From Porphyra umbilicalis (lineage: Eukaryota > Rhodophyta > Bangiophyceae > Bangiales > Bangiaceae), in contig KV918952.1 of NCBI GenBank assembly GCA_002049455.2, forward strand, positions 1-64,000: 64,000 nt of DNA. Reading direction: 5' to 3'. Both the position numbers and the translations under genes were made by a program. Within the stretch, counting starts at the first letter, position 1; each line of letters opens with the position of its first letter. The notes under the pieces are model-generated. The model was not told the origin of the DNA and did not search any database. It worked only from the letters and a program-made list of their open reading frames with translations. This document shows, piece by piece, positions 1 to 43,192 of this stretch.

Positions 1-989
1 CGATCGCCAGGGCGAGCAGGACCTTTCCCCTTGAGGGACGGCGGGTTGCAGGCGTGGTCGGCAAACGCATCCGCCGACGAACACAGAGTCAGGCAACGCG
101 GGCACTCTAGCCACGGGCGCGCGCCAGGCGGCACGATGAACGTCGTCGGTACACCCGACGAGCTCGACCCACGAGAGCCACCGACGTCGCTGGCGCCGCC
201 TGCGTCGCCAACGTCCCTCCGCACCGACCGACTGCCACACCCGTAGCGCACACTCCCGCTTCGCGACCGGATGCCCGCATCCCCGTCGCTGAAGCGCCTG
301 CGCTGTGATGCACGACCAGCGTCTCCACCGTCACAGGCCCGCTTGCCGGCATGCGCGGCACCACCAGCAACTCGAGTACCGCCGCCAGCGACGCCCGCGC
401 TGGGGCCAGCAGGAGGAGCCGAGACGGCGGCCGGACCACCACCGGTATCCGCAGCAGTGTGCAAGCGATGGCGACCGCCCGCGTTGTACACGTTGTTGCC
501 GTAAGTGTCGTAGTCGTCCTTGCCATTGCCGCAGTTCTGGTGACGGTCGTCTCGGTGCTGTACGCGCCCTCCTTCGACGCCGGCGTCCTTCTCCGCGGCC
601 TGCAGCAGGACCGCGAACTGGGCGTCCTCGTCCCCAGTGCGCCGCACCGCCGCCAGAGCTTCCCGAAGACGCGGGACGAGACGGGCGGTTTCTTCCAGCC
701 GCCCGGCTTCGCAAAGACGCTCGATGGCGCGGCGATGACGGGAACCATTCACGTGCATGAAGAGGCTCGAGGCCGCGTCATTTTGGGCCGCGCACAGGGG
801 GCACATCCAACGCGTCGTCCGGTCGGTGGACGCCGCGGGCGCATCGGTCGCGGCCTCAAGACGACGGTGCTTAGTGCCCCGCACGTGCTGCTCCCAAGTC
901 GCCCTCCCCGACAGCATCATGGCACAAAGATGGCACTCGACGAACCCACGCTGGTCAGGGAGAGGGTGGGAGGGAGGAGGGGAAGTCAT
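1..989 (-). CDS. U1-type zinc-finger protein, cassette copy 1 (3' end outside the window)
   Basis: The frame is open from an ATG at 989 down to the window edge, so the C-terminus is missing. Two C-x2-C-x12-H-x5-H fingers are visible: C19/C22/H35/H41 (ending HVRGTKHRR) and C63/C66/H79/H85 (ending HVNGSRHRR). This spacing and the H-x-x-G-x-x-H-R-R ending are typical of U1/matrin-type C2H2 fingers, which bind RNA or DNA. A basic, Gly/Ala/Arg-rich linker follows. A third Cys cluster (CPRCLTLCSSADAF...DHAC) lies near residue 305. The start is supported because it takes in the whole first finger; the copy at 29-30 kb lacks an in-frame ATG there. The nearest downstream gene on the same strand as transcription is outside the window. 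Function beyond nucleic-acid binding is unknown. Confidence 0.8.
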   Translation of the reverse strand, partial: MTSPPPSHPLPDQRGFVECHLCAMMLSGRATWEQHVRGTKHRRLEAATDAPAASTDRTTRWMCPLCAAQNDAASSLFMHVNGSRHRRAIERLCEAGRLEETARLVPRLREALAAVRRTGDEDAQFAVLLQAAEKDAGVEGGRVQHRDDRHQNCGNGKDDYDTYGNNVYNAGGRHRLHTAADTGGGPAAVSAPPAGPSAGVAGGGTRVAGGAAHAGKRACDGGDAGRASQRRRFSDGDAGIRSRSGSVRYGCGSRSVRRDVGDAGGASDVGGSRGSSSSGVPTTFIVPPGARPWLECPRCLTLCSSADAFADHACNPPSLKGKGPARPGD

Positions 990-1516
990 CTGAACGTTAC
1001 GGGAGGGCGACACGAGGGAGAGATGTGGGGAGCAGAGACGAAAGGCGCGGCGAGGGGATGAGCAACAACACCGCCAGCCGAGACGCACTGGCCACAAGCA
1101 ACAACACCGCCAGCCGAGACGCACTGGCCACGAGCAACAACACCGCCAGCCAAGACTCACTGGCCACAAGGCTGGGAGAATGGGCGAGGGACAACACCGC
1201 CGGCCTCGGCGGCAGAGTGGGACTCACGCCAGGTTCGAAATTAGTCAACTATACAATCATGTACTTGCATATATGTACTTATGCCGCTGTGTCCAATAGA
1301 ATGATAGGACATGTCATACGTTGGCGACTCTGCAACAATTTGAATCCATTCGAGTTGTTCGTGCATCCATCGCCGGCGGCAGCCCTCACCATCCACCATC
1401 CTCCCACGCCGTTTCCCTACGGCGCTCATGGCCGCATGCGACGGCCCCACGGAACGACCTCACGGCGTCCTTTACGCAGTACATGCGTGGCGATGCGCGG
1501 CGGCAATCGATTTTCA
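990..1516. promoter_or_regulatory. Conserved upstream region of the zinc-finger gene
   Basis: No gene is seen. Positions about 1206-1420 match 30243-30450 closely, including an AT-rich stretch (tatacaatca, cttgcatatatgtac) that stands out in this GC-rich DNA. It lies directly upstream of the minus-strand zinc-finger gene in both cassette copies, so it may hold its promoter. That role is inferred only from position and conservation. Confidence 0.4.
1061..1168. repeat. 36-bp tandem repeat, three copies
   Basis: The unit begins agcaacaacaccgccagccg and recurs at 1061, 1097 and 1133, exactly 36 bp apart, with a partial fourth copy near 1190. The matching region of copy 2 (about 30108-30160) has diverged remnants. 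Confidence 0.85.
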
Positions 1517-4308
1517 AGCGGCAGCAGACGTGCGCGGGTTGAGACACGGGCAAACAGGGGGGGAACGCGCGGCGTTGGCTGTGTTTTGAGCAGTACGCGG
1601 TGCTGGACGGCGGACGGCGGCGCGCGTGGCGGCGCCGGCATGCGTGTGTGGGTGGAGACACGGGAGAACAGGGGGGGGACGCGCGGCGTTGGCTGTGTTT
1701 CGAGCCGTACGCGGTGGTGGACGGCGGGCGGCGGTGCGCGTGGCAGCGGCGGCAGACGTGCGCGGGTTAAGACACCGGCGAACGGGGGGGGGACGCGCGG
1801 CGTTGGCTGTGTTTCAAGCCGTACGCCGTGGTGGACGGCGGGTGGTGGTGCGCGTGGCAGCGGCGGCAGACGTGCGCGGGTTGAGTCACGGGCAAACAGG
1901 GGGGGGACGCGCGGCGTTGGCTGTGTTTTGAGCCGTACGCGGTGCTGGACGGCGGACGGCGGCGCGCGTGGCCGCGCCGACATGCGTGAGTGGGTGAAGA
2001 CACGGGAGAACAGGGGGCGGACGCGCGGCGTTGGCTGTGTTTCGAGCCGTACGCGGTGATGGACGGCGGGCGGCGGTGCGCGTGGCGGCGCCGGCATACG
2101 TGTGTGGGTGGAGACACGGGAGAACAGGGGGGGGACGCGCGGCGTTGGCTGTGTTTCGAGCAGTACGTGGTGGTGGACGGCGGACGGTGGCGCGCGTGGC
2201 GGCGGCGGCAGACGTGCGCGGGTTAAGACACCGGCGAACGGGGGGGGGACGCGCGGCGTTGGCTGTGTTTCAAGCCGTACGCGGTGCTGGACGGCGGGCG
2301 GCGGCGCGCGTGGCAGCGGCGGCAGACGTGCGCGGGTTGAGACACGGGCAAACAGGGGGGGGACGCGCGGCGTTGGCTGTGTTTCAAGCCGTACGGGGTG
2401 GAGGACGGCGGACGGCGGCGCGCGTGGCGGCGCTGGCATGCGTGTGTGGGTGGAGACACGGGAGAACAGGGGGGGGACGCGCGGCGTTGGCTGTGTTTCG
2501 AGCAGTACGCGGTGGTGGACGGCGGACGGCGGCGCGCGTGGCGGCGGCGGCAGACGTGCGCGGGTTAAGACACCGGCGAACGGGGGGGGGGACGCGCGGC
2601 GCTGGCTGTGTTTCAAGCCGTACGCGGTGGTGGACGGCGTGCGGCGGCGCGCGTAGCAGCGGCGGCAGACGTGTGCGGGTTCAGTTACGGGCTAACAGGG
2701 GGGGACGCGCGGCGTTGGCTGTGTTTCGAGCAGTACGCGGTGGTGGACGGCGGACGGCGGCGCGCGTGGCGGCGCCGGCATGCGTGAGTGGGTGAAGACA
2801 CGGGAGAACAGGGGGCGGACGCGCGGCGTTGGCTGTGTTTCGACCCGTACGCGGTGGTGCACGGCGGGCGGCGGTGCGCGTGGCGGCGCCGGCATGCGTG
2901 TGTGGGTGGAGACACGGGAGAACAGGGGGGGAGGCGCGGCGTTGGCTGTGCTTCGAGCAGTACGCGGTGGTGGACGGCGGACGGTGGCGCGCGTGGCGGC
3001 GGCGGCAGACGCGCGCGGGTTAAGACACCGGCGAACGGGGGGGGGACGCGCGGCGTTGGCTGTGTTTCAAGCCGTACGCGGTGGTGGACGGCGGGCGGTG
3101 GTGCGCGTGGCAGCGGCGGCAGACGTGCGCGGGTTAAGACACCGGCGAACGGGGGGGGGACGCGCGGCGTTGGCTGTGTTATGAGCAGTCCGCGGTGCTG
3201 GACGGCGGACGGCGGCGCGCGTAACGGCGCCGGCAATTGTGAGTGGGTGAAGACACGGGAAAACAGGGGGGGGACGCGCGGCGTTGGCTGTGTTTCAAGC
3301 CGTACGCGGTGGTGGACGGCGGGCGGCGGTGCGCGTGGCATCGGCGGCAGACGTGCGCGGGTTGAGACACGAGCAAACAGTGGGGGGACGAGCGGCGTTG
3401 GCCGTGTTTTGAGCAGTACGCGGTGCTGGACGGCGGGCGGCGGCGCGTGTGGCAGCGGCGGCAGACGTGCGCGGGTTGAGACACGGGCAAACAGGGTGGG
3501 GACGCGCGGCGTTGGCTGAGTTTCAAGCCGTACGGGGTGGTGGACGGCGGACGGCGGCGCGCGTGGCGGCGCTGGCATGCGTGTGTGGGTGGAGACACGG
3601 GAGAACAGGGGGGGGACGCGCGGCGTTGGCTGTGTTTCGAGCAGTACGCGGTGATGGACGGCGGGCGGCGGCGCGCGTGGCGGCGCCGGCATGCGTGTGT
3701 GGGTGGAGACACGGGAGAACAGGGGGGGGACGCGCGGCGTTGGCTCTGTTTCGAGCAGTACGCGGTGGTGGACGGCGGACGATGGCTCGCGTGGCGGCGG
3801 CGGCAGACGTGCGCGGGTTAAGACACCGGCGAACGGGGGGGGGACGCGCGGCGTTGGCTGCGTTTCAAGCCGTACGCGGTGGTGGACGGCGGGCGGCGGT
3901 GCGCGTGGCAGCGGCGGCAGACGTGCGCGGGTTAAGACACGGGCAAACAGGGGGGGGACGCGCGGCGTTGGCTGTGTTTTGAGCAGTACGCGGAGCTGGA
4001 CGGCGGGCGGCGGCGCGCGTGGCAGCGGCGGCAGACGTGCGCGGGTTGAGACACGGGCAAACAGGGGGGGGACGCGCGGCGTTGGCTGTGTTTCAAGCCG
4101 TACGGGGTGGTGGACGGCGGGCGGCGGCGCGCGTGGCGGCGCCGGCATGCGTGTGTGGGTGGAGACACGGGAGAACAGGGGGGGGACGCGCGGCGTTGGC
4201 TGTGTTTCGAGCAGTACGCGGTGGTGGACGGCGGACGGCGGCGCGCGTGGCGGCGGCAGCATGCGTTCGCGGGTTGAGACACGGGCTAACGGGTGGGGGA
4301 CGCGCTCC
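1517..4308. repeat. Minisatellite, 114-bp unit, about 24 copies
   Basis: The motif gcgcggcgttggctgtgttt recurs at 1681, 1795, 1909, 2023 and 2137, exactly 114 bp apart, and continues to about 4300. At least three variants differ at the part reading gacacgggagaacagg, gacaccggcgaacggg or gacacgggcaaacagg, giving a higher-order pattern. Because 114 is divisible by 3, several frames on both strands stay open for hundreds of codons; these are repeat artefacts with no recognisable domain. It lies between the zinc-finger and E(z)-like genes. Confidence 0.93.
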
Positions 4309-4593
4309 GGCAGTTCTTTTCCTGGTGTTCATGTTTGTCGGCTCCCTGTTCCAGCGCGGCAAGGGCACCCGGCAGTTGACCATGTGTTTACCGGTGTGGT
4401 GGGCGGAGTATGATGCGGCGGCGGCTGGGCGGCGTCGCGGTTGATGAGTAGCGTACAGGGTTGGTCGACGGCGCGTGAGGCCGCTGTGGCAGACTTTGGG
4501 GGTTCGGGGTGGTGGAAGGGGTGCTCCAGCGCCGGCAGATGACGAGAGGGCTACTGATTCCACGAGCAAAGGCGCTCTTCAGAATCGTAAAAG
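4309..4593. other. Spacer at the 3' side of the copy-1 E(z)-like gene
   Basis: This is unique sequence between the minisatellite and the stop codon of the E(z)-like frame. No gene or clear signal is seen, and it does not obviously match the equivalent spacer of copy 2. Confidence 0.5.
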
Positions 4594-7500
4594 TCACTCA
4601 CGCCACCCGTCCTCCTCGTACCCATAGTCAAAGAACAGCTCCTCCCCAAGAGTCAAGTCGCGCAAGGCAAATAGCCCCACCCGTATGTACCCGCAGACGC
4701 TGAGCAACTTGGGCTGTAGGTTGGCATTCTTCCTGCTGTGGTTCACGTAACGCATCCGGCTGCCGACGCGACACGCATCGAGCACGACGACGCGAGTGAG
4801 GGTGTACAGATAACTGACGCCAAAGGAGTCGTAGACACGGCCCCTGGCGTGCGCGTCATCGTGCGGCACCATCTCCCCCACATACTCACCGACAAAATCA
4901 CCCTTGCACGCCCGCTCCGCAGCGAACACCCCGAAGCCGTGCGCTTCCGAGCGACCCAAAACCAGGCGCACTCGGAGGCCGACTTGCAGTTGCACATTTC
5001 TGCAGCGCCTGCTCCCGGCGACGCTGCCCGAAGCCGCGTCGTCCTCTTCAAGGACACCGACACCAGCAGCTGCCGGAGTGGCGGAGCACCCGCCGCTACT
5101 GTCGCCGGCGAGATGCACCCTGTCGATACCCGTGGACGGGTGCCAGTGCGCCCCGCATGACGAGCACGCGTCAGGATCACACTCGCGGTCGGCTGCGAAA
5201 CATGGACAGTCATCTGTCGCACACCGCCCAGGCGCAGCACACTCACACCACACACGGCGCGGGCATAGCCGAGACCCGGGGGCCGGAATGCTGGCAAGAG
5301 GCGGCGGTTCCGGCACGCAGGCGGGGTCTGCCGAAACCCACCGCAGGCGGGCGCAGCCGCAGTACTTCTCACAGGGGATGTCGGCGCGAACGCATCGGCA
5401 CACCCCCACCGTGCATCTGCCCTGGTGGAAGCAGGGAACAAGTCGACCGCTCGGCCGACGCCTTGACTGCTTGCGCCTGCTGCCGGCGAAGCCAACAATC
5501 CTTGCTGTCGGGGCAACTGGGCCGACGCCGCTTGTGAGAGACCCGACGATTCGCCTGGCCTGCTGGAACAGCCGTAAAAGTCCCACGCGTCTTTCAGCGG
5601 CGGGACGACCGCCGCGCAATCCTCGTCGGGCCACCCTTCGGCATCCGTGTACGCCGCCACACCGCGGCAAGTCTGCCCGGGCACAAACCGCGCCAGCCAG
5701 CACGTGTCTCGGCGACCGACGACGGCTCCGCCGAGGCGAAGCAACGTAACCCGTTCCTCAGTCCAGGCGCCCACGGCTGGCGCCACGTGCCCATCGTCAC
5801 CGGCGGGACGCAACACGTGAGAATGTCGGCAATCGCTGCACGTGCTGGCGGCGACCGCGATAGAGCGGTGCAAGGCGCTCGCGCTCCGACCGCGCCGCAC
5901 AGCCGCCTGCGTTGGCAACGAAGAGACGTCGCCGTCACTTGACTCCCCCGAGTCGCTGTCCGAATCCAGCGGAATAGAAGCCGCTGCTGCTGCTTCCCGG
6001 TCGTAGGGATTGTCGACGCCGTTTGGCAAACGGGAGGGGTCGGGAGGAGGGCGTACAGGGCGAGGAGGAGGCGGGGCCGAGAGCGGATGAAGAGAATTAG
6101 TGGAGTGGAGCCGGCATGCGTAGCGCAAGAAAACGCGACAGAGCAATCGAGACAACGTGTCACTCCCAAGTGTGGATGCTTCCATCGCTTGGTGGGCGCC
6201 ACTGCCGGCTTCCTCTCCGGCCGCTGCGACGGCCTCTGGCCCAACGATTGGCAAGGCATTGCCAGTACGTTCTTGCGCACAAGCGACCGCGTCCGACGAC
6301 CGCAACTCAGCACCTAGAGCTCGCAATGCATGCAAATCTGCTCTTGTCCAGTCGTCCACCTCCAGCTCCGCAGCGACCCGGAGGGCCTGCCGAACAGCCC
6401 ACCGGCGACTCGCTGCAGGCAACCCGGCGGCCGCCACATCGACATGAGCGTCGGCAGTGACCCGAGCAATCGACCAGCGCGAAGGCGGCGACTCGACTCG
6501 TCCCAACCCTGCGGCAATTCGCCGCACGCCCTGAGACATGGACGACACCTTAACAGCGCCACTGCCGAGCACAAGGGCTAAGCTCGCGCCACCCGTAAGT
6601 CGCTCCACCGCTTGCCGACGCGCGATGCGAGCAGAGCGCTCCCACCTTAGTGCCGCGTTCTCGCGGGCCCTACGCTCAATGAGAGCCACGCACCGTGTCA
6701 CTGCAGCAGTGCTCCACCCAAGCGAGGCTGCAATAGCCGCCACGACAACCGGTCCCTGCCCAAACATCCCGACCGCAGCGCTCACTCCCGCACGAGCGGC
6801 ATGGCGCCGCATGCGTGCGGGTAGCCGGTAGTACTCCGCCCCGCGACGCTCCCCCTCGTCATCCGACGCATCGCTATCGTCGCTGTCATCCCGAAACGCC
6901 CATCTGTCCAGCAACGCCGCCGGCGCAGACTCAGCAAATGGGCCGGTTTTGTCCCGCATGAACGGCACGAACCGCCGCCCTGGTGCCTTCTCGACGCGCC
7001 TCCAGGAATGACGAACAGGGACGTAGAACGTGTGCGCCGGCAACTACTCCTCGCCCGAAAGTACCGTGACCCGCACGGAGCCAGGCGGGGGCAGCGAACA
7101 CCGATCACGAGGCCCGACCTCACTCTTCCAGCCGAAGCGCGTCCCCAACGAGGCCCGTCTGCTGCTACCGGCGTCACGACCGTCCCGCCCGCACCTACCG
7201 TGCGTCGACAGACGACGCAGCTTTGGAGGCGGCGGCCGCCCAGTGCTGCCGTCCTCGTTGATGCCAGACGTGACCGGGCACGCACACAGGCGGCCCAGAA
7301 CGTCATCTGGCGCGTGCCGCACGCCAGGCCCGCCTGAGCTGCCGACACGGCATCCGCTGCCCTCCTCCGCGATGTGCCCCTCGGATCCGACATGGCGAGT
7401 CATCCCCACCCCATTATTCATGAGCGCAGCCCCGCCGTCGAAAGATTGAGCTCCGACAGCGCTCGCAGCCGTCCCGGCCGCTCTCACGTCGTCCCGACAA

Positions 7501-7922
7501 TCACGCCACACACCACTCTCTCTACCGAGGGTGCGGGCGTGCACGCCGCGGCTGCCACCGCCAGCGCGGACTGGTGCCACCTCCAGAGTTGCCAACACCG
7601 GCGATGTGGATCCGGTGGGCACAAGCGCGTCGAAGACGCGACGTTGGCGCTGCACTGCGGCTCGGTTGACGCGGATCGCGACTTCCACATCCACGCGGCG
7701 ACTGCGTAACGTGTGGCGACGCGCGATGCGGACCACAAATCCATATGATGACTCGCCTTCCTCGCCCGCCTCGTCGACTCCATCAGCAACCTCTGCCAAC
7801 TCAGGCCAGTCCAACAGGTGATCAGTGTCCATGACGAGGGTCGAGGCCACCCTCGGCATTGGTGGAACGCCATCACACTGCTCGTGCAGCTCTGGCCAGT
7901 CGGGAAGGTGGTCGATGTCCAT
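4594..7922 (-). pseudogene. E(z): E(z)/EZH-type SET-domain methyltransferase, cassette copy 1, interrupted
   Basis: This is the homologue of the intact gene at 31978-35793. From the 5' end it has MDIDHLPDWPEL with a second, similar motif 30 residues on, an MCSS-like CRVFLRYACRLH, a SANT2-like segment (WTEERVTLLRLGG), a CXC region rich in C-x-C (CEKYCGCARLRW, CPCFAADRECDPD) and a SET domain with GVFAAERA, YVNHSRKNANLQPK and ELFFDYGYEEDGW. E(z) is the catalytic subunit of PRC2 and methylates histone H3 K27. Two breaks are seen: an in-frame TAG at 7044-7046 where copy 2 has Gln, and a one-base frame change near 5440, just before the CXC region. The CXC halves are joined by only about 25 residues here, against about 235 in copy 2. 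A truncated or SET-only product remains possible. The start at 7922 is the first ATG matching the copy-2 N-terminus. Confidence 0.8.
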
Positions 7923-8450
7923 GGCGAAGGGGCGACGGGCGATTGTTGTCCGCAATAGGGCGACGGCGGGGAAAGTCGGGCAACGAGAGCAGGACACACA
8001 GTCGCGCAAGCAACAGCTGCGCGCACGCACACGTACATGAGCATCAGCATGGCGCTCGCGAGCAACACGATGGCGCACGCGAGAAACGAGAAGGCGCCAA
8101 CCTACTTGGACCAAGCGCAGGGCCAACGAGTGACGGAACTGCGTCTAAGTACTGACATGCAACCTGTCAATGCTGCCACAGATCGCTTGAGGGCCTTCCC
8201 CTTTGGAATTACAACAGTTCGAATTTCTGTCGAGCATTTGAGGCGGGCTCGTGTGTTGCCGCGAGTTCTTGTCACCCCCTCTGCCGGGCATGGGTTGAAC
8301 ACACACACGCCCATTTCCTGTCATGGCAATGTCTCTGCCGCCGCCGCTGCTCGGCGTCCCAATCTTGGCGGACCAGGGTACCTAAGATAGATCCGCGCGG
8401 CTTTTCCGCGTGCGCCTTCATGCGGGCGCGCGGGCCCCACCAGTGGGTTA
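7923..8450. promoter_or_regulatory. Upstream region of copy-1 E(z)-like gene
   Basis: No gene is seen. Base composition is more balanced than in the flanks. A short stretch near 8165-8190 (tgtcaatgctgccaca) resembles 35997-36012 upstream of copy 2, so some promoter sequence may be shared. This is inference from position only. Confidence 0.3.
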
Positions 8451-11050: not shown

Positions 11051-11208
11051 TGGCCGCCACGTTGGAAGAGATGGCACTGCTGAACAAAGTGAAGGAGGGG
11101 ATACCGTAAAAAACAAGTGCCAACGAAACAACAAGCCAATAGCCCTCCCCGTCAGCGGGCCTCAAGCGCGCCCCCGTTTTTCTTCTCTCACACTCACGCC
11201 ACTCTCGC
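11051..11208. other. Conserved 3' flank of gene (c), copy 1
   Basis: The block containing ccgccacgttggaagagatgg and gataccgtaaaaaacaagtg is shared with about 40205-40285. Here it follows the stop codon of the Cys/His-RG gene; in copy 2 it lies within the longer reading frame. Confidence 0.5.
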
Positions 11209-14041: not shown

Positions 14042-14068
14042 GGGTCCATTTTTTGCGGAAGTGCCATA
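14042..14068. repeat. 27-bp inverted-repeat end, left partner
   Basis: The bases ending ttttttgcggaagtgccata are the exact reverse complement of 14704-14730. The same 27 bp occur at 43166-43192 in copy 2. Both start or end in TA, as Tc1/mariner-type element ends do. The two copies here face each other, so they may be the ends of two neighbouring elements rather than of one. Confidence 0.75.
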
Positions 14069-14080
14069 CATACTGCTCTA

Positions 14081-14212
14081 CAGCCGTTCACCCAAAAATC
14101 CCGCACTCCAACTGTTGCAAAATAGTTCCAAATCGCCCTCTGCGGGGTCGTCGAGGCCGATTTGGAACTCTTTTGCAACAGTTGGAGTGCGGGATTTTTG
14201 GGAGAACGGCTG
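14081..14212. mobile_element. 132-bp foldback MITE with TA target duplication
   Basis: Two arms of about 55 bp, 14081-14135 and the facing arm ending at 14212, are reverse complements with only two or so mismatches, around a short loop. The ends read CAGCCGTT and AACGGCTG and are flanked by TA (14079-14080 and 14213-14214). This is the structure of a Stowaway-like Tc1/mariner MITE. Copy 2 of the cassette lacks it, so it inserted after the duplication or was lost there. Confidence 0.88.
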
Positions 14213-31625: not shown

Positions 31626-31977
31626 ATGCTGCGATACGTTGCCGGGCCCCCCAGCGCCAGCCGCGACCGACGCGGCGAGTGCGCATGGTGTCGGCGTCGT
31701 GCTGTCGTCGCCACTAGTGGGCGCACCCAGCGCCTCTCCCGCCCTCATCCCGCCGTCGCTGCGATACGCCGCCGCGCGCCACAGCGCCAGCCGCGTCCGA
31801 CACGGCGAGTGCCTATGGTCTCGGCGTCGTGCGGTCATCGCCTCCTCGTCGAGAGAGAGTTTCTCGCCGGCCTGTTCCATGCGGGTGTTATGGGAAGACC
31901 TCCTGACTCGAATGGTTTCCTCCTCCTCATATGCCTACTCGACTCTTGGCCAAAGGCCCTCTGAAATAAAGTAAAGG
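31626..31977. other. Spacer at the 3' side of the copy-2 E(z) gene
   Basis: Two imperfect repeats of about 125 bp (gcgccagccgcg[at]ccgac and tcggcgtcgtg) lie at about 31650-31840. No gene is seen. Confidence 0.45.
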
Positions 31978-34900
31978 TCACTCACGCCATCCGTCTTCCT
32001 CGTACCCGTAGTCAAAAAAAAGCTCCTCGCCAGGGAATAAGTCGCGCAGAGCAAACAACCCCACCCTCATGTACCCGCAGATGCTCAACAGCTTGGGCTG
32101 TAGATTGGCTCTCACCCTGCTGTGGTTCACATACCGCAATCGGCTGCCGACACGACTCGCGTCAAGGACGAGGGAGCGGGTGAGTGTGTACAAATAACTG
32201 ACTCCAAAAGCGTCGTAAACACGCCCTCTGGCGTGCGCGTCGTCGTGTGGTACCATCTCCCCAACGTACTCGCCAACGAAATCCCCCTGGGACGCCCGCT
32301 CGGCGGCAAACACGCCAAAGCCGTGAGCGTCCGACCGACCCAACACGAGACGCACTCGCAGGCCGACTTGCAGCTGCACGTTCCGGCAGCGCCTGCTGCC
32401 AGCGACGCCGCCGACTACTGGGTCATCAGCCGCCAGGACACCGACAGTGCGAACCAAGGCCAGGCGCTGTCGGCCAACACCGCCAAAGGGCTGCTCGCCG
32501 TCCACACCTGTCGCCGGGTCCCAATGCGCCCCACACGACCAGCACGCGTCAGGGTCACACTCGCGGTCGCACGCGAAGCATGGACATTCATCTGTCGCGC
32601 AGCGCCCCGGCGCGGGACACTCACACCAAACACGGCGTGAGCACAGTCGTGACCCGGGCGCCGGAGCGCTGGCCACATGTGAAGACCCGGTCATACAGGA
32701 GTGCGCGGCAGGAGGCGATCCAGGTACCTCCCGGCCCCAGCTGTCGTCCTCCTCCTCCAACCCGTCGACGTCGATTGGCGGCGCCGCCCGCTGGTGTGTC
32801 GCCATCGCGTCCTCCCCTTCCTCGGAGCCGTCGACGTCGATTGGCGACGTCACCGCCTTGTGCGCCGCCACCGCGACCTCCTCTTCCTCGGAGCCGTCGA
32901 CGTTGATTGGCGACTTCGGTGCCTTGTGTGCGGCCATAAGGACCTCCTCCTCCAACCCGTCGACGTCGATTGGCGGCGCCGCCGGCCGGTGTGTCGCCAT
33001 CGCGTCCTCCTCTTCGTCCAAGCCGTCGACGTCGATTGGTGACGTCGCCGTCTTCTGTGCCGCGACCGCGACCTCCTCCCTCACGGAGCTGTCGATGTCG
33101 AGTGGCGGCAGCACCTCGAAGGACATAGACTCCGCGACCTCGTCCTCGTCCGCGGTGCTGTCGCTATCGCTTGGCGATGACGACGGCTGGTACGCCGTCA
33201 ACGCGTCGTCGTGCGTCGCCGAACCGCTGCTGCCGTTGTCTACCTCGAAGCTGTCGCCGCCACTTGGCTGCGCCTTCGCCTCGTGCTCCACCACTGCGTC
33301 CACAGGTGTCCTCTTCGCGGCGGCGAGGGTGGATGAGGCAGCCGGAGGCACACTGGGGTCGACAGACGCCCACCGGAGGCGCGCACAGCCGCAATACTTT
33401 TCGCAGGGGATGTCGGCGCGCGCGCACCGACATGCCGCCACAGTGCAAGTGCCCTGATGGAAGCAAGGCACAAAGTCGAGGGCGCGGCCACCAGCTTGGC
33501 TGCTCCGATCCGCAGCCGGCGATGTCGTCGCCCCTTGACGCCGGGGTCTCTGGGCCGACGCAGCTTGCGACAGGCCCAACGACACCGACGGGGAACTGCT
33601 CTCTCCGTCAGCATCCCGCGGGTCCTCCACCGGGGCGGAGACGGCCGCAAAAGCGCCGTGACGCAAGCAGCCTGCGTTAAGGTACACCGCCACAGCACGG
33701 CACGACTGCCCAGGCACAAAACGGGCAAGCCGGCACGTGTCGCTTCGGCCGACAATGGCGGCGCCAGCGCGCAGCAGGGCAATCTGGTCCGCTGTCCACG
33801 CCCCCACGGCGGCGGCAACATGCCCATCGTCGTCCACTCGATGCGACCTGGGAGCGAGGCGACAATCGCCGCACCCGCTGGACACCTTAGCCGAGCCACC
33901 ACCGACGGCCACAAAAGAAGACGCATCTGCTCTCTGCTTCCCATGGTAGGCGCTCCCCGCGGGCTGGGAACGGCGGGATGGGTCAGGCGGCGGCCGCACA
34001 GGCAGGGCGGAAGGGGGTGCCGACAGAGGATCGGACGGATTGGTGGAATGCAGGCGGCAGGCGTAGCGCAAGCAGACGCGACAGAGCAACCTGGCAAGCG
34101 AGTCTCTCCCAAGCACCGATGTGTCAATCACATGGCGTCCAGCCCCCCCGTCCTCACCATGGCGCGCTGCGTCCCCACCACCAGCACCGACCGCCGTCAC
34201 GCCCGTGCTGGAGCCGCACTGAGCACCTGAGAAGACGTCCGGCGACCGCAACGGGCCGCCAAGCGAACGCACGTCGTGAGCGTCTGCTCGTCGCCAGTCC
34301 TCCACTGCCAGCACCTGCGCGACTGAGACAGCTTGCCGCACCGCCCATCTGCGACTCGCTGGAGGAAGCCCGGCGGCCACCCCATCGAGAGACGTCTCAG
34401 CAGCAACCCGAGAAACCTCCAAGCGCTCAGGCGGCGCCTCCACACGCCCAAACCCAGCAGCAACAAGTCGCCCGTCGGCCGTCATCGACGGCAACCGCGC
34501 CGCCCCACTGCCGAGCACGACGGCCAAGCTGGCACCGCCGGTCATCTGCTTGACGGCGTAATGGCGCGCCATACGGGCCGCGCGCTTCGCCCGCAATGCC
34601 GCATGGTCACGGGACCGACGCTCAATGAGCGCCACTCGGCACCTCACCTCCGCAGCGCTGCAACCCAGTGAAGCAGCAATAGCTCCCACGACCGCCGTCC
34701 CCTGTCCAAACATCCCGACCGCCGCGCCCACTCCCACTCGCACAGCAAGGCGCCTCATCCGCTGCGGTAGCCGGTTGTATTGTGCCCCGCGATTCCCACA
34801 GTCCTCATCGGATGCGTCGCTCGCGTCGCTGTCAACCCGGCCGTTCCATCTGTCCAACAATGCGGCACGCGCCGACTCGGCAAACGAGCCGGTCGTCGCC

Positions 34901-35793
34901 CGCATGTACGGCACAAACCGCATGCCGGGATCCTCCTCAGCGCGCCGCCAAGAACGGCGGGTGGGGACGTAGTACGTGTGCACTGGCAACTGCACCTCGG
35001 CCGAGAGTGCCGTGACCCGCACTGAGCCAGGGGCAGGAAGCGGCAACTGAGAACGGGCCCCGACGTCCCAGCCCCAGCCGTAGAAAGTCTTGAAGGCGGA
35101 ACAAACGGTACGTGGCGCACCACCGCGGTCAAGCGCCCGCCGGCCGTGCGAGGACAAACGCCGCAGCTTTGATGGTGGTGGACGCACAACGCCGCCGACA
35201 TCGCTCCTGCCCGTCCTGGCCCTGTCCCCGCATATGCGACCCAAGACATCGTCTGCGCCATGTCGCCCGTCAGCACCACCAGAGTGATTGACAAGGTGCC
35301 TAATGCCCACCCTCGTAGACGATGCGACCGACGCCACCTCGTTGCTGGTGGCGCCACCGTCTCCGACCCGCGGCGCAGCGCCATCATGAAAGTGGCCGCC
35401 AATAGCCTCACCTGCGGTTCCCCCCACCCCCTCCTCGTCCCGACAATCACACCAAACACCGTTCTCCCGAACCAGAGACCCCGCATCAACGCCTCCGTCG
35501 GCTGGCCCGCCAGCAAGGCGAGCCACCTCCAGTGTCGCTAGGACTGGCGGGGTGGAGTCGCTCGGCGCAGCCACCGCAACTGCACGGCGTTGCCGTTCCG
35601 CTGCCGCTCGATTGACGCGGATGGCGACTTCCACCGCTACGCGGTGGCATCGTAGCGTGTGGCGACGCGCGGTGCGGAGCACGGAGTCCACAGGACAGCC
35701 TCCAAAGCGTTCCGCATCACCCGCACGTGCAGCGTCGTCTCGATCAACAGGCAGGTCCAGCTCTGGCCACTCCAAAAGATGGTCAGTGTCCAT
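31978..35793 (-). CDS. E(z): E(z)/EZH-type histone methyltransferase, cassette copy 2, complete frame
   Basis: 1,271 residues, uninterrupted. Visible parts are an MCSS-like motif at 571-582 (CRVCLRYACRLH); a SANT2-like segment at 665-705 (WTADQIALLRAG to CRAVAVYL); the first CXC half at 773-808 (VPCFHQGTCTVAACRC, CEKYCGCARLRW); an inserted acidic stretch at about 809-1042; the second CXC half at 1043-1096 (RVWCECPAPGRC, CPCFACDRECDPD, CWSCGAHW); and SET at 1134-1271. SET carries HGFGVFAAE, GRVYDAFGVSYLYTL, the NHS motif at 1223-1225 and ELFFDYGY. E(z) is the PRC2 subunit that methylates H3K27. After NHS the usual N-P-N-C reads R-A-N-L. It is longer than EZH2 (about 750), mainly from the N-terminal half and the CXC insertion. 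The start is the ATG of MDTDHLLEWPEL, shared with copy 1. It could act with the host PRC2 or on its own target. Confidence 0.9.
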   Translation of the reverse strand: MDTDHLLEWPELDLPVDRDDAARAGDAERFGGCPVDSVLRTARRHTLRCHRVAVEVAIRVNRAAAERQRRAVAVAAPSDSTPPVLATLEVARLAGGPADGGVDAGSLVRENGVWCDCRDEEGVGGTAGEAIGGHFHDGAAPRVGDGGATSNEVASVASSTRVGIRHLVNHSGGADGRHGADDVLGRICGDRARTGRSDVGGVVRPPPSKLRRLSSHGRRALDRGGAPRTVCSAFKTFYGWGWDVGARSQLPLPAPGSVRVTALSAEVQLPVHTYYVPTRRSWRRAEEDPGMRFVPYMRATTGSFAESARAALLDRWNGRVDSDASDASDEDCGNRGAQYNRLPQRMRRLAVRVGVGAAVGMFGQGTAVVGAIAASLGCSAAEVRCRVALIERRSRDHAALRAKRAARMARHYAVKQMTGGASLAVVLGSGAARLPSMTADGRLVAAGFGRVEAPPERLEVSRVAAETSLDGVAAGLPPASRRWAVRQAVSVAQVLAVEDWRRADAHDVRSLGGPLRSPDVFSGAQCGSSTGVTAVGAGGGDAARHGEDGGAGRHVIDTSVLGRDSLARLLCRVCLRYACRLHSTNPSDPLSAPPSALPVRPPPDPSRRSQPAGSAYHGKQRADASSFVAVGGGSAKVSSGCGDCRLAPRSHRVDDDGHVAAAVGAWTADQIALLRAGAAIVGRSDTCRLARFVPGQSCRAVAVYLNAGCLRHGAFAAVSAPVEDPRDADGESSSPSVSLGLSQAASAQRPRRQGATTSPAADRSSQAGGRALDFVPCFHQGTCTVAACRCARADIPCEKYCGCARLRWASVDPSVPPAASSTLAAAKRTPVDAVVEHEAKAQPSGGDSFEVDNGSSGSATHDDALTAYQPSSSPSDSDSTADEDEVAESMSFEVLPPLDIDSSVREEVAVAAQKTATSPIDVDGLDEEEDAMATHRPAAPPIDVDGLEEEVLMAAHKAPKSPINVDGSEEEEVAVAAHKAVTSPIDVDGSEEGEDAMATHQRAAPPIDVDGLEEEDDSWGREVPGSPPAAHSCMTGSSHVASAPAPGSRLCSRRVWCECPAPGRCATDECPCFACDRECDPDACWSCGAHWDPATGVDGEQPFGGVGRQRLALVRTVGVLAADDPVVGGVAGSRRCRNVQLQVGLRVRLVLGRSDAHGFGVFAAERASQGDFVGEYVGEMVPHDDAHARGRVYDAFGVSYLYTLTRSLVLDASRVGSRLRYVNHSRVRANLQPKLLSICGYMRVGLFALRDLFPGEELFFDYGYEEDGWRE
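32750..33110 (-). repeat. In-frame 63/66-bp repeats inside the CXC insertion
   Basis: The core cgtcgacgtcgattggcg recurs at about 32762, 32828, 32894 (one base changed), 32955 and 33024, with a degenerate sixth at 33087. Spacing is 63-66 bp, so the frame is kept. Each encodes PIDVDG followed by an acidic run such as LEEED and an alanine-rich linker. PIDVDG plus acidic residues loosely resembles a SUMO-interacting motif. Confidence 0.85.
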
Positions 35794-36330
35794 AAGGGGC
35801 CCCAGGGCGCGACAGGGGAAGGAGCCGGCGCCACGAACGTACTGCACAGACGCGCACTAGACCACCAGTGTCGTGCAAGCGACGAGCTGCGAGGAGCACG
35901 CAAGCACCCAGAAGACAATGACAGCCGGCGAAGACAGGGCCTGGGTGCTTGACATTTGACTGAACAGCGAATCGTCAAAATACTCACGTACAAACTTGTC
36001 AACACTGCCACACGGCCCGTGAGCGCCTGCCTGTTTGAAATGGCAGCGAATATACGATAGTAACTACAAAACTCCGTCGTGCATGTCTCTGTGGCATGCC
36101 AATTGCAATCACAGCTCGGGCACACTTCTGCTGACAACCCCCATTCCGCTGGTATTCTGAAGACGAGGGCATGCTGCTGACCGCCGGAGCACCTGCAGCC
36201 GAATGCACGTCCCTGTCGTGCAGCTGCCAACACCACTACCACAGCCACCATCTAATCGACCGACGACACCACAAAGGCAAAGACAGACGAGTGGCGGGAA
36301 GGGTCCAACACGCCAAGGGAGGGGACGTGG
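35794..36330. promoter_or_regulatory. Upstream region of the copy-2 E(z) gene
   Basis: No gene is seen. Composition is more balanced than in the satellite to the right. It presumably includes the promoter, by position. Confidence 0.3.
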
Positions 36331-39179: not shown

Positions 39180-40159
39180 ACTGGTCTGCGGCCAGTGGCG
39201 GCGGCAGACGCACCTCGCCACTGCCTTCGCCCACGCCGCTGCCGCCGCCGACAGGTCCGCAGCGGCGGCGGCGGCAGAGGCACATCTCCACTGCCTTCGC
39301 CGCCGCCGCCGCCGTCGCCGACTCTTCCGTGGTCGCCACGGGGGTGCAGACGAACAAGACGGGGGGGGCGGTACAATGCCGCGGGTTAGCGGGGCGTGAC
39401 GGCTGCATCAGCGACACGCGCGCTCGGGTGCGTGGCCGTCGCCGCCGACTCGTCCGCGGCCGTCCGCGGCGGCCAACGCACGTGGCCACTGCCGTCGCCG
39501 CCGCCGCCGCCCCTCATCGCCTCGGCCGTGTCGTTCGACGGCGGCAGACGCACCTCGCCATTGCCGTCGCCGCCGCCGCCGCCGCCATGGACTCCTCCGT
39601 GGTCGCCACGACGGTGCAGACGAACAAGATGGGGGGGGCGGTGCAATGCGGAAGGTCAGCGGGACGTGACGGCTGCGTCGACAACACGCGCTCTCGGGTG
39701 CGTGGCCTGCGGCGGCGGCTGACGCACGGCGCCACTGCCGTCGCCGCCGCCGCCGCCCGCCATCGACTCGTCCGAGGCCGTCGGCGGCGGCAGGCGCACG
39801 ACGCCACTGCCGTCGCCGCCGCCGCCGCCCGCCATCGCCTCGTCCGCGGCCGTCGGCGGCGGCAGACGCACGACGCCACTGCCGTCGCCGCCGCCGCCGC
39901 CCGCCATCGACTCGTCCGAGGCCGTCGGCGGCGGCAGGCGCACGACGCCACTGCCGTCGCCGCCGCCGCCGCCCGCCATCGCCTCGTCCGCGGCCGTCGG
40001 CGGCGGCAGACGCACGACGCCACTGCCGTCGCCGCCGCCGCTGCCGCCATCGGTTCCTCCGTCGGCGCCATGGAGGCGCAGACGGACACACGAGGGGGGT
40101 GGGGGGGTACAACAGGGCTGATGAGCAGGACGTGGCTGCTGTGTTGGCGACACGCGCAC
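36331..40159. repeat. GCC-rich satellite block, cassette copy 2
   Basis: This is the counterpart of 8451-11050 but longer. A 72-bp unit with cactgccgtcgccgccgccg recurs at 39733, 39805, 39877, 39949 and 40021. A larger duplicated segment (about 36480-36700 and 36720-36945) contains gactcgtctgcggccggtgg. The 15-bp ggctgcagcagcggc-type array of copy 1 is reduced to a few units at 37250-37310. The unit with gcgcgctcgggtgcg is present at about 36350 and 39410. Long frames are artefacts. Confidence 0.85.
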
Positions 40160-42211
40160 TCAGGTCCGTGGCCGTCGGCGGCAATATAGGCACCTCCGTT
40201 GACTCGTCGACGGCCGCCACGTTGGATGAGATGGCAATGCTGAACAGAGTGAAGGAGGGGATACCGTAAAAAACAAGTGCCAACGAAACAACAACCACAC
40301 ACCCAGTTGCCCACCCCGCCCACAAGCCTCTCGCTCAGCTCCCCCCCCCTCCTCCTCCTCCTCCCCCGAGTCGCCAACGTCACTCCCATTGGACCCCCCC
40401 GATCCTGCTTCGTCATCGTCATTGTCCTCCTCATCGCCGCCACCAGAGCCGCCCTGGCGGCTCCTCGCCGAGCCCCGCCTTTGTGACGAGCCCCCCGTAG
40501 CGGTCGCAAGCTCGCTGTCCCACGTCGCCTCCCCCCCGAGAGACACGCCGAGCACCTGAGATGCCGTGACGTTCGAGTCAATATACTTCTTGACCCAACA
40601 CCCAATAAGAGAGAGGAGGTTGCTGTTGGAAAACATCGTCCGCCGAGAGACCAACTGCTCCGCCACGTCCGCGGGCGACACGACGCCGCATGTGATGTTC
40701 ATGCCGATCAGGAAGTTGTCCGTCGCGGCTTGGATGAAATCCTGCTCCATCGCCGGAAAGACAGCCGCCTGCACGCCCAGCGCGCCGCGGAAGACCTTCC
40801 GCGCGAGCTCCTCGGGCGACAGCGCGCTGATAGCGGGGCACTCAAACGTCACCACCCCCTCATACTTGCGGCGCTCTCCCGCCTTCCACCGCAGGTGAAA
40901 GGGCGTCGCAGAGTCGATAGGGGTGGCGGGGACCGCCGGGGCATCCTCGCGGACGCCAGCGCGCGCCGCGGCCGCCGCCCCGACACGCACCCCGTCCGTT
41001 GACCCGGCGCCTGTAGCAATCAAGCGCGACACGCCATCGGCAGCACGCATCGCGTTGGCGTGCATGAGCCCCGTGTGCACCCGCTGCATCTGCGCGGCGG
41101 AGCGCGACCCCGTGTCCTCCAAAGAACGACCGCCTGTGCCGCCCCCAGGAAGCACAGACGAGCCGCCACCGCCGTCATGGCTGCCCGGCGAGCCCCCCGC
41201 CGCACCGCCCGCCGGCGCCCGACCAGACTGCATCGTTGAAGACGACGCTCCACGGCGACTGCCGCGGCCCACACGACCACCGCGGACATCGCCGCGACCA
41301 CGCACGCGGCGGTCCCATGCGGGCTCACCGGACGGGCGCAAGGGCGCTGCATCGACACCCACGGCCCCGTTCCCCCCCACAAGCGACAATGGCGCATGAT
41401 TGGCCGCCGCGGTGGCGCCGCGCTGCCTTACAGACGCCGTAGGCGCCTCTGCTGCAGTCTCGCGATCGCCACCGTTCCCACCGGACGCCGCCCCCGCACC
41501 ACGGCCACCCCGCCCGATTCGCCCCCGCCCCGCAGCCGCGCTGCCGCCTCCGCGCCCAACACGCCCCCCCCCCTCCCGCACTATGGCGGCGGCACCGCCG
41601 GTTGCTGCCACCAAGGCCGCCCCAACGGCCGTCTGGCCCGTCTCGTCCGCAGCGGCGACCATCGACTCAAAATGAGCACGGTTCTCGACCCCATTCGTCG
41701 CGGCGGCGACACCGTTCACGTCCATTACATTCGCCGCCTCGATGACGTCCCACCCAACCTCGTGAACGTTGGCGGCGAGCCGCGCCGCAGAGGCGGCGAG
41801 CTCCTGCGCCTCGCGCCACTCCTGCCAGCAAGCCGCGTGCTGCACCCGAACCCACTCAGCGACGTCGCTCTCCTGGAGCCAAGTGCAGGCAAGATCAGAC
41901 TTGGTCAGCGGCGGAGCACCGCGCCGCCGCGTGATGTTTCCCGTCCTGCCGTCCATGACAAAACGCTGCGGAGAGAGAACCATCGTTCCGACGCGGTGCC
42001 CCACCGCCCGGCACTTGGAGCACTTCTCCAGGCAAGCGCAGTCCTTGAGATAGCACGTGCCGGCCTTGTGGAATGGGTGGGTGGGGGGCAGGCGATGGAG
42101 GCACGGGTAAGACTTCAGGGCACACGTGCGCTGCGAGTGTGAACCCGTCCGCTTGTTCCCTTCGTCATCTCGTCCCAAGTCAAACCCGCAAAGAAGGCAT
42201 TTGCCCGTCAT
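40160..42211 (-). CDS. Cys/His-rich, RG-rich protein of unknown family, cassette copy 2
   Basis: 683 residues, uninterrupted, starting MTGKCLLCGFDLG. The Cys/His block (CLLC, CALKSYPCLH, CYLKDCACLEKCSKC), the RG-rich middle (GRGRIGRGGRG) and the conserved C-terminal domain (FHLRWKAGERRKYEG, LIGCWVKKYIDSN) all match copy 1. The copy-1 tail SDIVDLGEED reads SDVGDSGEEEEEGGG here. The frame then continues about 60 residues past the copy-1 stop into sequence that is non-coding in copy 1 (ending YCRRRPRT), so the extra tail may not be functional. It is transcribed in the same direction as the E(z) gene and lies upstream of it, separated by the satellite block. The function is not recognised. Zinc and nucleic-acid binding are inferred from composition. 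Confidence 0.78.
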   Translation of the reverse strand: MTGKCLLCGFDLGRDDEGNKRTGSHSQRTCALKSYPCLHRLPPTHPFHKAGTCYLKDCACLEKCSKCRAVGHRVGTMVLSPQRFVMDGRTGNITRRRGAPPLTKSDLACTWLQESDVAEWVRVQHAACWQEWREAQELAASAARLAANVHEVGWDVIEAANVMDVNGVAAATNGVENRAHFESMVAAADETGQTAVGAALVAATGGAAAIVREGGGRVGRGGGSAAAGRGRIGRGGRGAGAASGGNGGDRETAAEAPTASVRQRGATAAANHAPLSLVGGNGAVGVDAAPLRPSGEPAWDRRVRGRGDVRGGRVGRGSRRGASSSTMQSGRAPAGGAAGGSPGSHDGGGGSSVLPGGGTGGRSLEDTGSRSAAQMQRVHTGLMHANAMRAADGVSRLIATGAGSTDGVRVGAAAAARAGVREDAPAVPATPIDSATPFHLRWKAGERRKYEGVVTFECPAISALSPEELARKVFRGALGVQAAVFPAMEQDFIQAATDNFLIGMNITCGVVSPADVAEQLVSRRTMFSNSNLLSLIGCWVKKYIDSNVTASQVLGVSLGGEATWDSELATATGGSSQRRGSARSRQGGSGGGDEEDNDDDEAGSGGSNGSDVGDSGEEEEEGGGAEREACGRGGQLGVWLLFRWHLFFTVSPPSLCSALPSHPTWRPSTSQRRCLYCRRRPRT

Positions 42212-43165
42212 CCCCGGAGCAACGCACACACACAAACACGCACAGCTCCCCACACGGCGCTCTGCACAGCCGTACCCGCGTCACAGGTCAAAAGTCGGGC
42301 GACACCTGCTCCCTGACCCTCCGGTCGAACTGGGCGAGCCCGCTCGAGTACGTGACGGACTTCACCACACACACACTCCCTCCTGGTGAAGGTGCTGAGG
42401 ATCTTCACGGCGACAGAGGGCGATTGAGGGGGGTGTGCCCAGGAGTGCGTCAGAGGAGTGCTTGCGGAGACGGGTGGTGAGCAACATGCAAAAACGCTCG
42501 TCGCCGCAACTGAGCAGATGCTGCGGGGATGCAAACGCCCGTCGCGTGACTCTCGGACGTGTGGCCAAGCTTTGTGCCCCTCTGACGACAGCAAGGCCCT
42601 GCACGCGCAAGCGACCAATCAAATGAAGGAATATCCATGCACAGGGGATCACGAAAGCGCGCCGCGGAGACTGAGGCGCTCCCGGAAGTCATGTAGCCCT
42701 CCTTTTTTAAGCTTTGCACACATCGTGTACCGTTTGCACCTCATCGACCGGAGCACGAAGTGGAGCACGTTTCCTCTCAGACGAGCATCGGCACGCCGCT
42801 TAAGGGCTCCGAATTTTCATGAAATCTGTGCATCCACCCGGAAGGGGTCTCTGGGAGCCGCCTAATGATCTCAGTTAGGGTCCGATCCGCACAGTGCTGG
42901 TCGCTGCTGCACGAAGTGGCGCACGTTTCCCATGGGATGAGTCTCACTAGGGCCTAAATGAGAATCGGTCCACCCAACTAAGGCTCTGGACCACCCCTCG
43001 GGCCGCATGCCGGGGGTAGTCGCCAACCACTCGCGAGCTGGCCTACATGTCCTGGCGTTTTATCGCGCGATCGCACTGTTCTGTAAGCAAACGCGCACGC
43101 TCGACGAAACGTGCCACCCCTGACGGGCCCCCAGGCAGGGGTCAAACGTGCACTGCCGACGAAGG
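42212..43165. promoter_or_regulatory. Conserved upstream region of gene (c), copy 2
   Basis: It matches 13081-14041 over its length, with no gene visible, and ends at the 27-bp inverted-repeat end (43166-43192) as in copy 1. It probably holds the promoter of the Cys/His-RG gene. Confidence 0.4.
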
Positions 43166-43192
43166 GGGTCCATTTTTTGCGGAAGTGCCATA
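43166..43192. repeat. 27-bp inverted-repeat end, copy 2
   Basis: Identical to 14042-14068, ending gcggaagtgccata. The partner seen in copy 1 (14704-14730) is absent here; the 628-bp family follows instead. Confidence 0.7.

Follow-up and report, generated by a model that had tools for sequence, protein, structure and literature searches.

Results

Two neighbouring blocks belong to two transposon insertions

Do the two E(z)-like genes in this window, the 64,000-nucleotide stretch of Porphyra umbilicalis DNA analysed here, belong to a duplicated host Polycomb locus or to mobile DNA that carries silencing genes of its own? The silencing complex PRC2 is deeply conserved, and in several eukaryotes it keeps transposons repressed. 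Paramecium provides one example (PMC6586856). The first-pass annotation had described a three-gene cassette occurring in two blocks that agree in order and orientation, and three alignments between these blocks (A and B) at 67-89% identity bore this out: positions 1-1600 matched 29039-30617 (85%), the E(z) region 4567-7832 matched 31951-35793 (67-78%), and 10782-14068 matched 39914-43192 (89%). The minisatellite of about 114 bp that it had noted is likewise present in both blocks (114/115 bp, at 1518-4305 and 30728-31621), together with GCC-rich arrays. The three genes are indeed there, but they form only part of a larger unit that includes a transposase at 17945-18976, missed earlier.

Block B forms the right-hand portion of a single DNA transposon of 28,484 bp (copy B, window 14707-43190), complete between 30-bp terminal inverted repeats (TIRs) that are identical at 30/30 positions. 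The left TIR (14707-14736, plus strand) starts TGGCACTTCCGCAAAA, the right one lies at 43161-43190 (minus strand), and comparison with an empty site identified a TA target-site duplication on both sides (14705-14706 and 43191-43192). The host site is a 632-bp TA-ended repeat that copy B split into a left piece (14337-14706, plus strand, positions 1-370 of the intact copy) and a right piece (43191-43454, plus strand, positions 369-632); the intact copy nearby (43453-44084, plus strand) gives the unoccupied site, and the two pieces overlap by 2 bases, which is the exact TA duplication. An inverted copy had led to the suspicion that the 370-bp piece was the element's own terminal repeat, an assignment we rejected, as it is really part of the separate dispersed repeat hit by B. 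Inside this single TIR-bounded unit lie the DDE_3 transposase, two Cys/His proteins, a zinc-finger protein and the E(z) homologue.

Block A represents a separate insertion (1-14066), cut by the contig end, with its left end beyond the contig and a right TIR at 14037-14066 (29/30) directly followed by TA at 14067-14068; 640 bp separate the two copies. The right block borders annotated earlier, 14068 and 43192, thus coincide with transposon ends plus TA, whereas unit B begins further left than had been drawn, at 14707. The zinc-finger gene of A lies at 3-1223 (minus strand), in a frame open to the contig end. Profile matches place its E(z) gene at 4597-8144 (minus strand; CXC and SET at 4597-5757), and sequence comparison its Cys/His-RG gene at 11209-13080 (minus strand). 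Not every gene pair keeps the long frames ascribed to it, since the E(z) of A reads in more than one frame.

If a host Polycomb locus had simply undergone segmental duplication, and the transposases lay close to it fortuitously, this would explain why two copies stand close together in the window. Against this speak the common TIRs, the unlike flanks and the empty site, and for B it is refuted. Moreover, copy A shares two stretches at 97-99% identity with contig C239 and copy B matches a copy on contig C196 at 97-99%, while A and B diverge more from each other. We consider this explanation practically eliminated.

A family of dozens of large Tc1/mariner-type elements

The transposase of copy B (17945-18976, plus strand, 343 aa) is of the DDE_3 / IS630-Tc1-mariner type, with an HTH_23 domain and a D..D33E triad. 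It matched PF13358 over the cut-off (8.1e-10) and HTH_23 just below it (3.8e-5). Among 18 aligned rows D156 and D253 were invariant and E287 was present in at least 90%, with 33 residues between the last two. Copy B combines the helix-turn-helix, triad, TIRs and TA duplication of the IS630-Tc1-mariner group. Its score against the NCBIfam IS630 model (1.3e-21, 77.4 bits) fell below the cut-off of 100, which, for a bacterial equivalog, speaks against that subgroup only. A giant-virus origin was considered and rejected, as the transposase, the only query used, had no relative in viral contigs.

Genome searches returned 85 SET, 69 zinc-finger and 117 transposase matches, and a TIR search gave 133 matches compared with 2 for the reversed control. 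Related transposases (at least 48% identity) lay within 30 kb of 63 of the 85 SET matches, against 5.7 expected from a flat estimate, and 0/25 more distant transposases lay near a SET or zinc-finger match. The other 22 SET matches had no related transposase within 30 kb; ten SET matches lacked a related transposase, zinc-finger and VEFS match alike, and several of these were other SET families or fragments. From 100 of the 133 listed TIR places we obtained 20 facing TIR pairs more than 15 kb apart, and 16 of them contain a single transposase and a single SET, together with either a zinc-finger gene (9) or a SUZ12 VEFS box (7) but never both.

In all 12 elements with ends read, TA stands immediately outside both TIRs and the flanks are unlike; the search pattern for element ends itself began with TA, so that the independent evidence consists of the unlike flanks and of the empty site of B only. 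One pair, C57 and C86, is recent: over the stretches read the two are about 99.8% identical, and they are equal in length, with different flanks. The family thus comprises dozens of large DNA transposons (about 20-37 kb) with inverted repeats beginning TGGCACTTCC, TA ends and an IS630/Tc1-mariner-type transposase. Instead of the two-copy duplication first described there are many copies with common TIRs and, for B, a TA duplication, the very features by which the first-pass annotation had proposed to recognise an amplified selfish or cargo-bearing element. That this is a transposon family with PRC2-subunit cargo we regard as nearly certain.

These insertion sites also bear on the idea that the methyltransferase complex steers integration into Polycomb-type chromatin as a safe harbour. 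Copy B sits inside a dispersed repeat copy, C23 probably sits in another (judged by eye), and A and B are immediate neighbours. Just 12 insertion sites were read, however, and their flanks otherwise vary, and we find such targeting very unlikely.

SUZ12 and a zinc-finger gene exclude each other

The zinc-finger gene of B (29020-29958, minus strand, with the frame open up to 30027) is of the U1/zf-met type and has 69 matches in its own genome. It gave no Pfam match over the cut-off and no VEFS; its relative L112 matched zf-met (1.7e-7), again with no VEFS, and the notion that this gene is a diverged SUZ12 was not supported. VEFS occurs in 26 places genome-wide, with a SET match within 30 kb in 22 of them. 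In the element frames L107 and L111, the two that were scanned, VEFS scored over the cut-off and Zn_SUZ12 below it. L106 has VEFS with no Zn_SUZ12 match, on a contig with neither SET nor transposase match. Part of the family therefore carries predicted homologues of two of the three minimal PRC2 subunits, E(z) and SUZ12, and the rest a U1-type zinc-finger gene in place of SUZ12. That the zinc-finger gene may replace SUZ12 is suggested only by the finding that the complete elements hold either it or VEFS, never both. In C. elegans, the unrelated MES-3 has been discussed as possibly taking the place of Su(z)12 (PMC8788455).

For EED, no candidate was found in the 16 complete elements among the best 150 of 380 WD40 candidates, nor in the element frames scanned with Pfam. 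The remaining cargo of B comprises a small Cys/His protein (21113-21442, plus strand, 109 aa), recognised by comparison with a relative in element C187, and a Cys/His-RG gene (40160-42211, minus strand, 683 aa) that belongs to no Pfam family in our scan and whose AlphaFold2 model was useless (mean pLDDT 29.6). Zinc-finger and Cys/His-RG genes again stand next to E(z) in C116 and C187. Constraint is weaker on the zinc-finger, SUZ12 and Cys/His genes (dN/dS 0.24-0.58) than on SET.

Element E(z) genes form one clade under purifying selection

Pfam, structure and profile comparisons identified the E(z)-type methyltransferase of B (31978-35847, minus strand, 1289 aa) as a SANT2-CXC-SET protein, and the E(z)-like gene reported earlier is genuine. 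SET was matched at 8.4e-17 and CXC at 0.0011 (19.9 bits, below the cut-off of 23.3), while in the block A piece 4594-5703 both domains exceeded the cut-off. The closest solved structures were EZH2 (1.3e-33), and hhalign against E(z) proteins gave a probability of 100 (E 5.5e-75, 318 columns) in the order SANT2-CXC-SET. Only this portion aligns to known E(z), the N-terminal EED-binding part being recognised neither by Pfam nor in the hhalign columns. An NCBIfam label, AnkI/LegAS4, was set aside because it reflects the shared SET domain only (34.7 bits vs 550).

In a tree with a single non-E(z) outgroup row and long branches flagged by the tool, element E(z)s formed one clade (support 100/99) inside the E(z) rows; E(z) was thus most likely captured once by the transposon family and then kept. 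Among element E(z)s the SET dN/dS was 0.06-0.12 at dS 0.35-1.7, and judged by these ratios they are under strong purifying selection. The catalytic N-H was retained in 41/41 aligned SET rows (9 of the 50 frames read being excluded for low score or stops), and the DYGY motif was altered or missing in 10/41. No meaning was attached to the residue aligned with EZH2 Y641, as the column is variable. Between A and B the outer genes differ at dS 0.16 and the SET domains at dS 1.03, showing that E(z) is swapped between element lineages.

Large transposons may hold cargo useless to them, and E(z) and SUZ12 might be such passengers, captured by chance. One E(z) clade family-wide, the low SET dN/dS and the SET gene in 16 of the 20 long TIR pairs already disfavour this account, which we judge highly improbable. 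As an anti-silencing decoy, by contrast, element E(z) together with SUZ12 or the zinc-finger protein would bind host EED or PRC2 and divert it, so that the elements escape Polycomb silencing. The exclusion between SUZ12 and the zinc-finger gene, the E(z) exchange, as in an arms race, and the altered DYGY rows would all fit, and some other transposons code for proteins that influence how they themselves are silenced (PMC12730594). Because SET dN/dS is low across the domain and N-H is kept in every aligned row, catalysis appears to be retained, which a pure decoy would not need; we regard the decoy as unlikely, if still deserving of attention.

Discussion

A proposed role in self-directed silencing

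The explanation we favour, with a probability of about 0.5, is that of a PRC2-cargo transposon family whose E(z) complex would direct H3K27 methylation to the element itself and so place it under reversible silencing. The transposase would act on the TIRs to move the element, and element E(z) would form a PRC2-like complex with its own SUZ12, or the zinc-finger stand-in, and probably host EED. Recruited to element DNA by the zinc-finger and Cys/His proteins, this complex would write H3K27 methylation there. The element would then impose reversible silencing on itself, which would do less harm to the host and compete with permanent silencing, and which could be released at the life-cycle stage when transposition pays. 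That element E(z) is active and useful to the element seems quite probable; that its main role would be self-directed H3K27 methylation we hold with distinctly less assurance, slightly short of an even bet.

Is any E(z) in this genome not transposon-borne? The E(z) queries P0030 (Cyanidium) and P0014, which groups with it, matched at least 61 distinct E(z) places. Among the matches listed, about 30 kb or less separated 60 of the 61 from a match to a related transposase, a zinc-finger gene or VEFS, and the sequence of the last, C286, closely resembles that of element copies. L001 (C352) was rejected as host E(z) because its frame, judged by eye, lacks CXC and has a SET1/Trx-like post-SET. No canonical host E(z) was detected among the best 50 of 251 and 59 of 156 candidates, in a fragmented assembly where an intron-bearing gene could be missed. 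The host may conceivably have lost its ordinary E(z) and rely on E(z) genes carried by transposons, of which some copies would be domesticated. The 61 places and a VEFS gene at C6, apart from any SET or related transposase, would agree with this; given the candidates scored and the assembly, in which an intron gene could escape, we think it quite unlikely. More tentative than self-directed silencing, and doubtful in its full form, is a mobile Polycomb system: a family with its own PRC2, made of E(z) and SUZ12 or the zinc-finger stand-in, that would set H3K27 methylation on its own copies, with the parasite rather than the host controlling silencing and the only detectable E(z) genes borne by transposons.

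With maintained E(z) and, in part, SUZ12 genes, an element may own silencing machinery, which reverses the usual view. The family provides a natural setting in which to ask whether self-silencing benefits transposons and whether mobile DNA can transport Polycomb genes, and the zinc-finger and SUZ12 types in otherwise similar elements offer a test of how freely SUZ12 can be replaced.

Comparison with known systems

The elements share the DDE_3 transposase, TIRs and TA target duplication with IS630-Tc1-mariner transposons. These usually span 1-5 kb with one gene, whereas those described here reach 20-37 kb, unusually large for a Tc1/mariner-type element, with several cargo genes. Our literature searches found no report of E(z) and SUZ12 in giant Tc1/mariner-type elements. 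Compared with PRC2 (E(z), SUZ12 and EED), the elements combine in one unit an E(z) homologue and, in some of them, a SUZ12 homologue; these are transposon-encoded, none of the best 150 of 380 WD40 candidates for EED lies in a complete element, and the zinc-finger type has no VEFS match. Harbinger elements have their own transposase type and a 3-bp target duplication, in contrast to the DDE_3 transposase and 2-bp TA found here. Phytophthora HarbingerS and MuDR elements are likewise DNA transposons with SET histone methyltransferase cargo (Kojima & Jurka 2014, cited in PMC12730594). Compared by description only, they belong to other transposase superfamilies than the DDE_3, TA-ended elements here, and a SUZ12 partner is not mentioned in the part of PMC12730594 consulted. 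Fungal DNA transposons encoding TET/JBP dioxygenases also carry an enzyme for epigenetic marks, as cargo that passes between lineages; their enzyme is of the DNA-demethylation type, and the 11 transposon lineages listed in the portion consulted do not include Tc1/mariner (PMC12730594). The DNMT-bearing retrotransposons of dinoflagellates and charophytes are mobile elements that likewise encode the writer of a silencing mark, with the difference that those are retroelements using DNA methylation and these are DNA transposons with, by homology, histone methylation (PMC5890265).

An E(z) gene within a transposon

The window comprises bases 1-64000 of the 147-kb contig C192, in a genome of 83.8 Mb and 665 contigs. 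The two blocks of common gene order described in the first-pass annotation were recovered by self-comparison of the window, its minisatellites and GCC-rich arrays by tandem-repeat analysis, and its E(z) assignment by the SET domain of the gene at 31978-35847 (minus strand), whose nearest solved relative is EZH2. The CXC domain is under threshold in this gene and above cut-off in the block A copy, and the zinc-finger and Cys/His-RG genes are without a family match at cut-off. Loci on contigs C116 and C187 show the identical gene order Cys/His, E(z), zinc-finger; each gene set is accompanied by a gene matching window positions 17600-18973. This gene is a DDE_3 transposase with helix-turn-helix (start at 17945) and a D..D33E triad; its IS630 match falls under that model's cut-off.

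Perfect 30-bp inverted repeats, each adjoined by TA, are located at 14707 and 43190. The flanks of the enclosed copy B are two pieces of one 632-bp TA-ended repeat with an intact copy adjacent; the left piece corresponds to positions 1-370 and the right to 369-632, so that the two pieces share exactly the duplicated TA, and the intact copy represents the empty site. Inverted repeats, TA duplication and empty site together identify copy B as one 28,484-bp transposon. Copy A has the same terminus (29/30) at 14066, followed by TA, and its other side lies beyond the contig end.

The 632-bp repeat is itself a MITE-like, TA-ended inverted-repeat element with ends TATGGTGCGTGTCCC... (window 43453-44084, 14337-14706, 44133-44764 and 44998-44763), and is dispersed in the genome: scoring 40 of 414 candidates gave at least 40 near-full matches to the initial 370 bases. 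A 136-bp near-perfect palindrome (14079-14214) in the interval separating copies A and B is probably another small repeat.

Family size and element ends

The proposal of an amplified element rather than a lone duplication was supported by 85 SET, 69 zinc-finger and 117 transposase matches in the genome, and by 133 places with the terminal inverted repeat (TIR) pattern at up to 2 mismatches, compared to 2 with a reversed control. Transposases at ≥48% identity account for 92 of the 117, and 63 of the 85 SET matches have one of these at a distance of 30 kb or less (5.7 expected by a flat estimate). Ten SET matches, some of them other SET families or fragments, lacked any zinc-finger, VEFS or related transposase match up to about 30 kb away. 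The 25 transposases under 48% identity form a second, related group; within 30 kb of them, neither SET nor the zinc-finger gene was matched.

Among the 100 TIR places listed (of 133) we found 29 facing pairs, 20 of them exceeding 15 kb. Sixteen of these 20 enclose one ≥48% transposase and one SET; of the other four, two lack a SET match but enclose transposase and zinc-finger, one has two zinc-finger matches, and one none of the four genes. The ends of the C20 pair are unlike in sequence and may be mismatched. Nine short pairs (3.5-8.7 kb; e.g., C33:333333-336836, C12:122898-126524, C96:192574-197494) have the same ends without SET, and only the one on C40 has a ≥48% transposase match; they are likely deletion derivatives.

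All 12 elements whose ends were read have the structure TA, TIR, TIR, TA with unlike flanks; since the search pattern began with TA, its presence here is in part a product of the search, and independent proof comes from copy B with its empty site. The elements on C57 and C86 each measure 20,639 bp between ends and share about 99.8% identity where their E(z) and transposase were read; their flanks differ, indicating recent independent insertions. Contig C239 (1-2419) and the window (1-2420) both begin inside 97%-identical copies of one element; breaks in the assembly may thus coincide with elements, which makes the copy numbers given here minimum values.

Origin and exchange of E(z)

The 19 element E(z)s analysed form a single clade (100/99; 100% of 200 bootstrap trees). 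Its nearest neighbours are database proteins P0015 and P0017 (93/79), a join flagged as a possible long-branch effect, followed by a group with Cyanidium E(z) and three further proteins (92/87). E(z) relatives at up to 42% come from Cyanidium, animals, oomycetes and fungi, among others, and a transposase relative occurs in Pyropia yezoensis (53%); for the transposase, E(z) and the Cys/His gene alike, closer relatives are proteins mostly from jgi and ena sources. With part of the candidates scored, two E(z) queries led to 61 distinct places in the genome, none of them a canonical host E(z). At 60 of these places a zinc-finger gene, VEFS or a related transposase was matched at up to about 30 kb; the remaining one, on C286, closely resembles element copies in sequence.

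Across 22 elements, E(z) and transposase trees agreed in their groups (Mantel r 0.82, p = 0.0001) apart from a single clear conflict: C50/C21/C115/C41 joined C57/C86 by transposase and C177/C482/C187 by E(z). Between copies A and B, the zinc-finger and Cys/His genes had a dS of 0.16 and the SET domain one of 1.03. E(z) thus mostly moves with its element and is sometimes exchanged.

Constraint on the element genes

Simple pairwise counts, without tree models, gave SET dN/dS of 0.06-0.12 in nine of 14 pairs (dS 0.35-1.7) and 0.07-0.36 in four closer pairs (dS 0.14-0.18), one pair at dS 0.01 being uninformative. Transposase values were 0.05-0.11 in nine of 12 pairs, and 0.27 and 0.43 in two close pairs (dS 0.06), with one at dS 0.01 again uninformative. 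Values for the zinc-finger gene (0.32-0.58; 5 pairs), SUZ12 (0.38-0.39; 2 pairs) and Cys/His gene (0.24-0.50; 4 pairs) were also obtained. From 50 SET frames read, 41 element rows were aligned; nine frames were set aside because they scored low or contained stops, among them other SET families, truncated copies, and the stop-containing C116 and C167. All 41 rows retain the catalytic N-H, and 31 of 41 retain DYGY. The element E(z) appears to be a functional enzyme; some copies, including that of A, are decayed.

SUZ12 and other PRC2 subunits

A VEFS search aimed at the host's PRC2 returned 26 places; SET lies no more than 30 kb from 22 of them, and a ≥48% transposase no more than 40 kb from 17. 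Each of the 16 complete elements has either VEFS (7) or the zinc-finger gene (9), none both or neither. Of the three subunits of a minimal PRC2, part of the family thus holds two. In the two element frames scanned, L107 (near the SET of C184) and L111 (inside the C79 element), VEFS was above cut-off and Zn_SUZ12 weaker. Frame L106, whose contig has neither SET nor transposase matches, carries VEFS without a Zn_SUZ12 match, and L113 (C6:428293-430449), in split frames with neither SET nor related transposase nearby, may be the host's SUZ12. The eight VEFS elements fall on one side of a branch (99/98) in the midpoint-rooted 22-element tree; in the 19-element E(z) tree, the VEFS-linked C71/C317 pair is separate from the other VEFS rows, without firm placement, and a single origin of the SUZ12 type is therefore no more than a possibility.

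No WD40 match fell in the 16 complete elements among the 150 listed (150 of 380 candidates scored). Many open frames of ~1,700-1,800 aa with WD40 repeats (C4, C11, C22, C101, C193, C246 and others) apparently constitute a repeated protein family.

Possible role and known relatives

The family bears the signature of mobility, its E(z) genes form one clade, and its genes are under constraint. The element E(z) and its partners could assemble a PRC2-like complex, which the zinc-finger and Cys/His proteins would guide and which would methylate H3K27 on the element. Self-directed, reversible silencing seems the likeliest role, at a probability of roughly 0.4; we rank it above a decoy function, which is a weaker candidate, then host dependence, which seems improbable, and targeting, which we consider slightly less probable still. 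According to PMC8788455, the activity of complete PRC2 greatly exceeds that of E(z) by itself, and in C. elegans Su(z)12 may be replaced by an unrelated protein; on that basis an exchange between SUZ12 and the zinc-finger gene would be understandable.

We found no account of transposon-borne E(z) or SUZ12 in the open-access papers searched. SET genes as transposon cargo are already known: PMC12730594 cites Phytophthora HarbingerS and MuDR transposons with SET genes. Further analogues of the E(z)-bearing elements are fungal transposons with TET/JBP genes (PMC12730594) and retrotransposons with DNMT genes (PMC5890265).
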